DNA of 58,114 bases from Deltaproteobacteria bacterium (GTDB lineage: Bacteria > Myxococcota > Myxococcia > Myxococcales > SZAS-1). How positions within the stretch are numbered: position 1 is the stretch's first letter; every line of letters starts with the position of its first letter. The stretch covers positions 1-58,114 of the forward strand of contig JAFEBB010000049.1 of NCBI GenBank assembly GCA_018266075.1, given 5' to 3'. Below the pieces are notes generated by a model. That model did not search any database and was not told the origin of the DNA. It saw only the letters and a program-made list of their open reading frames with translations. Of this stretch, positions 2,333 to 37,407 are shown piece by piece. The translations under genes were made by a program, and so were the position numbers.

Positions 2333-2422
2333 GGGACGCACGCTAGAACGCAGGGGCCGTCGCGTGAAGCGCCGGCAAGGCCGGAACGCGAAGTTTCCCC
2401 GCTGCACCCGGACGCTCACTTG

Positions 2423-2502
2423 CTTGGGAAACGGTGACGGTGATCGGTTCTCGGGGATCGGCGCCGATCACCGCACGCCGATCACCTGTACCGTTCCCCA
2501 AG
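2423..2502. repeat. 80-bp imperfect palindrome in a divergent intergenic region
   Basis: Outer arms of 25 bp (2423-2447 and 2478-2502) pair with 21 of 25 positions. A perfect 14-bp palindrome, GATCGGCGCCGATC (2456-2469), sits at exactly the same dyad centre, so this is one symmetric element. The right half, read on the minus strand, contains GGTGATCGG twice at 14-bp spacing and matches a second location at 27690-27728 in 36 of 39 positions. It lies between the divergent starts of aat and the methyltransferase gene. It could be a regulator binding site or a REP/MITE-like mobile repeat; sequence alone does not decide. Confidence 0.85.
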
Positions 2503-26847: not shown

Positions 26848-27597
26848 ATGCACTCGCGCTGCCTGTTGCTCGCCACCTCGATCACCATCGCCGTCGCGTC
26901 GAGCGCGCACGCCAAGTCCAAGAAGGCCGAGGCGCCGCTGCCCACCACCATGGCCGCCGTGACGGACACCGCGGTGGACATCAACGAGAAGGACGCCTCG
27001 CGCAAGACGGCCGAGGAGTACCTGAACGCGCTCAGCGGCCAGGGCTCGGACCAGGGCCGCGATCACCTGCTGGGCGGCGCGACCATGACCGCGCGCATCT
27101 TCACCCTCGAGAACTGGAAGGTCGTGGGCCGCGAGAAGCACCGCCGCGAGGTGGGCGAGCTCTCCGACATCAACGCGCTCGTCGACGGCCTCGACCGCGA
27201 GGGCCGCACCGCGCTGGCCAAGATGATGGGCGGCGGCCCGGGCTCGGACGACATGTCCACCCACGAGTTCTCGGCCGAGGAGGCCAAGAAGATCCTCGAG
27301 CCCACCAAGCAGAAGGCCGCGCTCTTCAACAAGACCCACCCGGTGTTCGCGTACGTGGCCCGCGTGGACAAGGAGGTCTACTGGCACCCCAAGAACCCGT
27401 TCCGCGAGCTGCTCCAGCAGGCCGGCGCCAACGGCAAGTACACCATGGACTTCGACCTGTTCTGGATCGAGACCGACGAGGGACTGGGCGAGAGCAAGAC
27501 CGCCCGGAAGTGGCCCCTTCGCGTGGTGCGCTTCGTGACCGACAAGATGGACACCGGGTTCAAGATCCTCCCCGCGAGCGACTGGAACGCGGAGTAG
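26848..27597 (+). CDS. Exported hypothetical protein
   Basis: 249 residues with a signal peptide (MHSRCLLLATSITIAVASSAHA). The mature part is soluble and charged, with DINEKDASRKTAEEYLNALS early and YTMDFDLFWIETDEG late. No catalytic motif recognised. GGGGAG precedes ATG 26848 by about 8 nt. It is followed by 169 bp that hold a copy of the dispersed repeat. Confidence 0.62.
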   Translation: MHSRCLLLATSITIAVASSAHAKSKKAEAPLPTTMAAVTDTAVDINEKDASRKTAEEYLNALSGQGSDQGRDHLLGGATMTARIFTLENWKVVGREKHRREVGELSDINALVDGLDREGRTALAKMMGGGPGSDDMSTHEFSAEEAKKILEPTKQKAALFNKTHPVFAYVARVDKEVYWHPKNPFRELLQQAGANGKYTMDFDLFWIETDEGLGESKTARKWPLRVVRFVTDKMDTGFKILPASDWNAE

Positions 27598-27689
27598 AGA
27601 CAAGGCGGAAGCCCATGGCCGTCGCCCGAAGGCCGCCGGCGGGCCCGGGGGGCTCGGGGTTCCCCGCTTTCACAGAGCAGCTGCAGGTG

Positions 27690-27728
27690 CTTGGGGAACG
27701 GTAACGGTGATCGGTGTGCGGTGATCGG
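27690..27728 (+). repeat. Half-copy of the dispersed 39-bp repeat
   Basis: Matches the right half of the 80-bp palindrome at 2423-2502 (minus-strand reading) in 36 of 39 positions, including both GGTGATCGG boxes at 14-bp spacing. Here the second half is missing, but a short GTGATC-G-GATCAC dyad (27721-27733) overlaps its end. It lies 39 bp upstream of the YjbQ start. Confidence 0.85.
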
Positions 27729-27766: not shown

Positions 27767-28186
27767 TTGAAATCCCACCGCGAGGAGCTCTGGTTCGAGA
27801 CCCCGAACCGGATGGACTTCATCAACATCACGCCCCAGGTCGAAGCGGCCTTGAAGAAGAGCGGCGTGAAAGAGGGCTTGTGCCTGGTGAACGCCATGCA
27901 CATCACCGCGAGCGTCTTCATCAACGACGATGAACGCGGCCTCCACTCGGACTACGCCCGATTCCTCGAGAAGCTCGCTCCCCACGAGCCCACCAGCGCG
28001 TACCAACACAACCGCACCGGCGAGGACAACGGCGACGCCCACATCAAACGGCAGCTCATGGGCCGCGAAGTGGTCGTCGCGATCACGAACGGCGCCCTCG
28101 ACTTCGGCCCGTGGGAGCAGATCTTCTACGGCGAGTTCGACGGCCGCCGCCGCAAGCGCGTGCTGATCAAGATCATCGGCGAATAG
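27767..28186 (+). CDS. YjbQ/UPF0047 family protein
   Basis: 139 residues, the normal length for this conserved family. Diagnostic segments: [20 protein letters not shown], the conserved [13 protein letters not shown], and [20 protein letters not shown] with the His/Asp/Glu cluster. Some members show weak thiamine-phosphate synthase activity, but the physiological role is unsettled. TTG 27767 was chosen because GGAGAGGAG lies 8 nt upstream and it matches the family N-terminus. Confidence 0.88.
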
Positions 28187-35790: not shown

Positions 35791-37407
35791 ATGAGCGCGG
35801 ACCGCCCCGCCGACCTTCGCGGACGCACCCTGCCCTGGACCACCCTCCAGCTCGCTCTGCTGGCGACGCTCATCCTCGCGGGCCTGGTGTTGCGCGCCTG
35901 GCACCTCGGCGCCGAGGGCTTCGCCGACGACGAGATCCACAAGTGGCTCGCCGCCAACCGCTACCTGCACGGCGACTTCGGGGGCGACGACCTCGAGCAC
36001 CCCATGGTGATGAAGGCGCTCATCGCCCTGGCCATCGCGGTGCTGCCGAAGTCGCTCTCGCCCGAGGCGCTCACCCGCGTGCCCAGCGTGCTCGCGGGGA
36101 CGGCGGCCATCTGGGCGGTGGCCCAGCTCGGGCGGCGGCTCTACGGAAACGGCGCGGGCCTGGTGGCGGCGGGGCTCTGCGCGCTCTCGGCCACCTGCGT
36201 GGGCTATGCGCGCATCGCCAAGGAGGACGCGCTCTTCGCCCTCTTCTTCGCGCTCATGTTCTGGAGCCTGGCCGAGGCGCGCGCGGCCGCAGACTCGCAG
36301 GACACGACCCGCCAGCTGCGCTTCGAAAACTGGGGCGCGGTGTTCCTGGGGGCGATGTTCGCGTCGAAGTACTTCGTGTTCGTGCTGCCCATGCTGCCCT
36401 TGCAGTACGCGGTGCTCCGGCAGGACTCGGCGTGGCGGGTGCCCTTTTCACGCTGGGTCAAGCTGAGCTTCCTGGCGCTGGCGGTGATGCTCGCGCTCGA
36501 CTGGGTGCTCTTCATGCCCTCGAGCTGGCACTACATCGTGCACTACGTAGCCGGCGACAAGATCGCCGACCGCGCCAGCAGCGAGAGCTACTTCTTCATG
36601 GGGAGGCTCTGGGACAACCTGGCATTCCACGTTCGCGGGGCGGCGCCGTTCTATTTCCACCTGGTCTTCGCCGCGGTGAAGTTCGCGCCGCCCACCGCGC
36701 TGCTCATGGCCGCGGGCATCGCGCTCGGGCTCTGGCGTCGGGCCGCGGCCGACAAGCTGGTGCTGGCGTGGATCGCGTTCATGCTCTTCGTGTTCCTGGT
36801 CGCCGGGGCGAAGTACGGGCGCTACTTCTTCTGCATGATGCCGGCGTTCCTGGCCCTGGCCGGGAGCGCGGCGACGTGGCTCGTGCAGCGGCTCCAGGAG
36901 AAGCAGCAGCAGGCGGCCCTGGCCGCGCTCGCGGGCGTGGCCTTCGCCACCGAGGCGTTCGCCGCGGTGACCCATGAGCCGCACCCGCGCCTCTACGTGA
37001 GCGCGCTCGGCGGCGGCGACACCAACGTGGACTGGTTCTTTCCCCACTGCGACTACTTCGACGCTGGCGTGCGCGAGGCGGTAGCCCAGATCGCCGCGCG
37101 CTCGGAGCCCGGTGCCGAGGTGGCCACCGAGACGGACTGGGTGGTGCGCTACTACGCCGACCAGGCGCGGCGCACCGACCTGGTCGACACCGCCATCTTG
37201 CCCAACACCGGCTGCCTGCATGGACGGACCTGCTACGTGATCGTCCAGAGCGGGCGGCACTACTGGCACAACGAGGCCGCGCTGGATTTCCTGGCGAAGC
37301 AGAAGCCGTGGACCACCGTCGACGTGGCCGGACGGCAGGCCGTCGCCGTGTATCGGCTGGAGCCAGGCGCGCCGCTCTTTCCGCCCGCGACCGCTGCTTC
37401 GAAGTAG
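35791..37407 (+). CDS. GT-C family glycosyltransferase (ArnT/PMT-like)
   Basis: 538 residues with about ten membrane spans. After the first span comes GFADDEIHKWL, an Asp-Asp/Glu motif at the first periplasmic loop as in the PMT/ArnT superfamily, which use polyprenyl-phosphate sugars. The C-terminal domain (about 380-538) is soluble and periplasmic. It probably transfers a sugar from an undecaprenyl carrier to lipid, glycan or protein. The GT2 gene at 40144-41190 could provide that carrier-linked sugar. Acceptor unknown. Confidence 0.82.
   Translation: MSADRPADLRGRTLPWTTLQLALLATLILAGLVLRAWHLGAEGFADDEIHKWLAANRYLHGDFGGDDLEHPMVMKALIALAIAVLPKSLSPEALTRVPSVLAGTAAIWAVAQLGRRLYGNGAGLVAAGLCALSATCVGYARIAKEDALFALFFALMFWSLAEARAAADSQDTTRQLRFENWGAVFLGAMFASKYFVFVLPMLPLQYAVLRQDSAWRVPFSRWVKLSFLALAVMLALDWVLFMPSSWHYIVHYVAGDKIADRASSESYFFMGRLWDNLAFHVRGAAPFYFHLVFAAVKFAPPTALLMAAGIALGLWRRAAADKLVLAWIAFMLFVFLVAGAKYGRYFFCMMPAFLALAGSAATWLVQRLQEKQQQAALAALAGVAFATEAFAAVTHEPHPRLYVSALGGGDTNVDWFFPHCDYFDAGVREAVAQIAARSEPGAEVATETDWVVRYYADQARRTDLVDTAILPNTGCLHGRTCYVIVQSGRHYWHNEAALDFLAKQKPWTTVDVAGRQAVAVYRLEPGAPLFPPATAASK

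Follow-up and report, generated by a model that had tools for sequence, protein, structure and literature searches.

Dispersed intergenic palindromes in a Myxococcales genome and their probable link to S23 protein genes

The 80-bp palindrome at positions 2423–2502 of the window, the 58,114-nucleotide stretch of DNA analysed here, lies at the core of an element that spans about 2350–2545 and is probably a non-autonomous member of a dispersed, intergenic, hairpin-forming family linked to S23 proteins. In the 7.84-Mb assembly of 166 contigs to which the window belongs as contig C49, about 80 half-elements occur where the initial annotation had recognised two copies. Both S23 genes of this genome occupy loops of inverted repeats, and each repeat is also scattered elsewhere in the genome in the form of gene-free palindromes, as follows from the member of the window family on contig C41 and from the GTTCCTG repeats around the second gene on contig C35.

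Direct computation bears out the palindromic nature claimed for the 80-mer, which is self-complementary at 62 of 80 positions, as well as the recurrence of its right half, the reverse complement of 2464–2502 being identical to 27690–27728 at 36 of 39 positions (33 of 39 for the left half against the same stretch). The view that such likeness lies beyond chance also holds, since TTGGGGAACGGTNNNGGTGATCGG, the pattern of the half-site, has three occurrences in the window when at most three mismatches are allowed and gave no match in 100 dinucleotide shuffles. The limits first drawn for both copies proved too narrow: at the first site an outer hairpin at 2355–2376 and a long imperfect hairpin reaching to about 2545 also belong to the element, and the second copy runs from about 27617 to 27728. 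As delimited by the alignment of 60 half-elements, the whole element (2350–2545, no strand assigned) consists of an outer hairpin and two inverted arms and fills the intergenic gap between aat on the minus strand and a SpoU-type RNA methyltransferase gene on the plus strand; BLAST with the family consensus matches the window at 2387–2541. The outer hairpin, SL1 (GGCCGTCGCGTGAAGCGCCGGC, 2355–2376, plus strand), stands at one end only, on the aat side. The left arm, of A type with the junction CTTGC-TTGGGAAAC, occupies 2388–2461 on the plus strand (profile match E 6e-19), and the right arm, of B type with the junction CGTAC-TTGGGGAAC, occupies 2464–2534 on the minus strand (profile match E 5e-17). 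Folded as single-stranded DNA, the 80-bp core, to which no strand is assigned, gives a z of -6.5, and the 196-bp region 2350–2545 reaches -60.9 kcal/mol with a z of -4.6. The second copy is a half-element in which SL1 at 27617–27638 (plus strand; pattern match at 27617–27643) accompanies an A arm at 27648–27728 (plus strand; profile match E 1e-16), the inverted arm being absent, and its neighbours are a function-unknown gene at 26848–27597 and a UPF0047/yjbQ gene at 27767–28186 (Pfam). The loops of the window copies contain no ORF.

Across the family, the conserved unit is a hairpin-forming stretch of DNA of 160–200 bp. Each half-element comprises SL1, a TTTCCC...TTGGGGAAC segment and degenerate 7-bp tandem units (CGGTGAT CGGTGTG CGGTGAT CGG), the consensus order being SL1 (GGCCGTCGCCCGAGGGGCGCCGGC), a GGGRTGC..GGCTTTCCCCG..CACTCGGACGCGCGC(T/G)TGC segment and then TTGGGGAACGG with the 7-bp units, while full elements are made of two such halves in inverted order and fixed polarity, their outer ends facing outward. 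Compensatory changes mark SL1, with 98.7% of cells paired across the family and six two-sided cells against 1.6 in shuffles and none once the partner had been slid. Nearly all strict matches to SL1 in the genome adjoin half-elements, which led us to reject it as an independent repeat, and RNAalifold detected no convincing internal structure in the half-element minus SL1. Tight full elements carry SL1 at one end at most, and no element has two arms with GTAC/GGAC junctions (p = 0.019, the types being assigned partly by eye); because of this one-sided SL1 and the non-random pairing of junction types, the data suggest that the full element is an oriented unit. Gene conversion or pairing selection between the arms was considered and rejected, likeness being 0.748 within elements and 0.753 between them.

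In the genome as a whole, the half-site pattern gives 57 matches against one for a reversed-pattern control. A family profile built from 57 half-elements identified 78 half-elements at 44 mapped loci in the retrieved genome regions, and another half, at C20:3885, emerged when the genome was searched by BLAST with a 160-bp consensus, bringing the family to about 45 loci. Every one of the 44 mapped loci lies between predicted genes, as called by a codon-usage caller that was checked on the window, and the copies take the form of full elements, halves, tandem halves (C105, C69) and triples. Inspection by eye of 26 full copies, the ends of which are frayed, revealed no recognisable target-site duplication. 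Of the flanking gene pairs, 25 are tandem, 14 divergent and five convergent; within tandem pairs, many copies stand 6–63 bp after the upstream gene, and the next start tends to follow at a distance of about 90 bp or more. Given this mixed gene orientation, the position of the copies does not follow promoters. The initial annotation had weighed a regulator site common to aat, the RNA methyltransferase gene and yjbQ against a small non-coding mobile repeat. The first of these readings is not borne out, copies lying beside unrelated genes in all three orientations, and the second agrees well with 44 intergenic loci and a 45th, with the occurrence of full, half and tandem copies, and with the lack of any copy in 59 further genomes from the order. 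The proposed search for further copies in the genome and its relatives was rewarded in the former by many more copies, while in the latter the family motif was found in none of those 59 genomes. A motif search of 84,980 species genomes returned five single matches, of which those inspected appeared to be unrelated sequence, and viral contigs gave no match; as far as these data go, the palindrome family appears restricted to the host lineage within the genomes searched. On contig C26 (L031:2229-3228) an ABC-ATPase gene, and on contig C31 (L012:1484-2015) an ORF of 65 amino acids, are also enclosed by SL1-bearing half-elements in inverted order, both possibly composites or captured cargo.

An S23 gene, a feature absent from the initial annotation, is carried at only one of the approximately 45 family loci. 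On contig C41, a gene for an S23 (23S-rRNA-IVP) protein of the four-helix-bundle type at 36405–36710 (PF05635, E 4e-25) is flanked by two half-elements on each side, at 36157 and 36254 on the plus strand and at 36756 and 36844 on the minus strand, and the outer half-elements match the family consensus with E values of 2.9e-14 and 2.8e-11 in a whole-genome BLAST. Among solved structures, the S23-like 2gsc matches this protein. It was the description of rRNA intervening sequences that first made S23 proteins known, yet no function has been assigned to them, nor, to our knowledge, any catalytic residues or activity. They form homopentamers of four-helix bundles without known function (PMC4990558). 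An Rfam scan of L033, L029, L017 and L051 gave no match, and the loci of the family sit between protein genes.

The genome's only other S23 gene lies on contig C35, a whole-genome search having found no third. It is bracketed by inverted GTTCCTG arrays (CAGTTCCTGGTTCCTGG...CCAGGAACCAGGAACTG), a (GTTCCTG)n inverted pair occupying C35:62848-63322, whose sequence is unrelated to that of the window family. The GTTCCTG repeat is itself amplified, with 114 matches in the genome against one for the control, and 101 listed places resolve into at least 45 loci, the S23 locus included (examples of the family are L251-L264). Inverted pairs are present at 11 loci among the matches listed, all in the polarity found around the S23 gene, and the start-to-start spacing within them is 32–72 bp at ten loci, against 425 bp where the S23 gene lies. 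The loops read in gene-free pairs are short, and about 44 other GTTCCTG loci, 10 of them palindromes, are apparently without S23.

Similar brackets recur in the phylum. With flanks of 300 bp and a local inverted alignment score of at least 20, inverted flank repeats were found at 27 of 52 S23 loci, which are not independent (eight of the 27 positives come from one genome), the corresponding figures being 5 of 159 for control genes and 9 of 306 for mismatched flank pairs; some of the 25 S23 loci without such repeats belong to convergent S23 pairs or adjoin the end of a contig. The brackets are inverted arrays of short tandem units of varied sequence. Six S23 copies in one genome (G018) share their termini, made of GGGAAAG units and a GCAGGCGCGCGCCAACGCC hairpin, and have unrelated flanks. 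Within the order, the members of one genus differ at a particular locus: between convergent genes, G060 has an S23 element of about 0.66 kb and G043 one of about 0.9 kb, where two congeners (G040 and G004) have only 34 and 21 bp, a contrast which implies that an orthologous site may hold an S23 element in some genomes and lack it in others. The two elements at this locus (L236 in G060, L223 in G043) have quite different flanking repeats, and because of this difference the repeats around S23 genes may turn over faster than the gene. Three other congeners have different palindromic repeats here, of the form CGCTCACCCTGAGC...GAGTCGAAGGG (L227, L228, L229), and the site suggests an insertion-prone spacer. 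In G025 (L096-L099), G153 and G178, S23 matches were also seen in pairs on opposite strands, often converging tail to tail at a distance of about 70–310 bp, and four such pairs in G025 fall within repeated segments of about 1.6 kb that are 92–97% alike.

The S23 protein is taken as the common part since unrelated repeats bracket both S23 genes of this genome and many S23 genes of its relatives. An ancestral form of the element would have carried an S23 gene, now seen at one of about 45 loci, and the short palindromes would derive from S23-bearing elements by internal deletion with loss of the gene. The element would copy itself by transposition, with the S23 protein presumably binding the folded repeat and acting in trans in its spread or upkeep; RAYT proteins are thought to act on REPINs in trans. 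The putative cutting and joining activity may be supplied by the host, through an enzyme active on hairpins at replication forks. A search of the genome for reverse transcriptase gave no RVT_1 match, so a retro step of the Avd kind is disfavoured. That one copy of the family carries an S23 gene suggests that S23 proteins partner with mobile hairpin DNA, as a partner of hairpin elements other than RAYT. Tentatively, S23/IVP four-helix-bundle proteins might even define a broadly distributed class of mobile palindromes located outside rRNA genes, in which the protein would recognise a folded inverted repeat and drive both its own spread and that of gene-free hairpin derivatives without a known transposase or reverse transcriptase, the rRNA intervening sequences (IVSs) being a special case that landed in rRNA. 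A role of the ORF in IVS mobility is an open suggestion (PMC4990558), and the position of both S23 genes in loops of amplified repeats, together with the recurrence of the bracket in the phylum, provides a concrete and testable substrate for the S23 question. No publication tying S23 genes to dispersed palindromes was found in a literature search that left subscription papers and preprints outside its scope, and the novelty of the association is therefore provisional.

It is conceivable, if rather unlikely, that the repeat is instead moved by an unlinked enzyme, either a Y1/HUH transposase of the RAYT kind or a DDE transposase, or by replication slippage at hairpins, with S23 as cargo or squatter. 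The anatomy of two inverted hairpin units is REPIN-like, the genome has two Y1_Tnp genes, and the brackets around the C26 ABC-ATPase gene and the small C31 ORF demonstrate that genes other than S23 can sit between the arms. Neither Y1 gene, however, has a family profile match within about 1.5 kb on each side, and the one on contig C10 is bracketed by an inverted repeat of its own and of different sequence (GGCGTTAGAAACGCCTCCTACATCCACCACGA; L054, C10:16878-17201), whereas S23 is common to unrelated repeat families here and in many relatives. A transcription terminator or mRNA-stabilising repeat under selection (the classical REP role), whatever its origin, would suit the strong hairpin and the many copies placed 6–63 bp after the upstream gene in tandem pairs, but this role is very improbable for a repeat of which 14 of 44 copies lie between divergent genes, where no transcript ends, and only five between convergent ones. 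The binding site of a DNA-binding regulator or nucleoid protein common to many genes, to which the conserved GGTGATCGG boxes, copies near gene starts and a total of some 45 sites, enough for a regulon, might point, is scarcely credible in view of five convergent and 25 tandem sites, often just after the upstream stop codon, of a conserved unit far longer than an operator, of the existence of half, full and triple copies, and of relatives that have the same genes and lack the element.

As an S23-linked hairpin-forming element, the family can be set beside several known systems. Like miniature inverted-repeat elements (MITEs), it is 100–400 bp long, non-coding and intergenic, with terminal inverted repeats and many copies; it differs in that no parent insertion sequence with matching ends was found, no copy among the 44 loci bears a transposase, and the product of the gene-bearing copy is not a known transposase. 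CGTC-tagged REPs, a family reported without a dedicated transposase, are likewise palindromic hairpins, and SL1 contains GCCGTCG (PMC3733652). The CGTC of the element, however, lies inside the SL1 stem and is not an unpaired end tag, and the composite unit is larger. Avd is a pentamer of four-helix bundles. PF05635 resembles this protein, which is essential to the retrohoming of diversity-generating retroelements (DGRs; PMC10053308). DGR Avd (bAvd) acts with a reverse transcriptase, in contrast to the present case, where none was found in the genome, and the bAvd profile matches the C35 S23 protein only below the cut-off. The likeness to REPIN/RAYT systems lies in hairpin units that are paired in inverted order and dispersed intergenically and in one gene-bearing locus flanked by the same units. 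Here, however, the gene is S23/PF05635 and not a Y1 tyrosine transposase, neither Y1_Tnp gene is flanked by the units, a feature that defines REPIN/RAYT, and the element's inner part consists of 7-bp tandem units, a GTAG tag not having been identified in it. In the 23S rRNA IVSs of Leptospira, Coxiella and others, a long terminal inverted repeat encloses an S23 gene in its loop, an arrangement shared in the window family by the C41 member only. PMC4990558, citing Burgin 1990 and Ralph and McClelland 1993, gives the proposal that these IVSs are left over from transposition or are mobile with the ORF aiding mobility. The element described here differs from these IVSs in being intergenic, outside rRNA rather than inserted in the 23S gene, and in being accompanied by dozens of gene-free copies.
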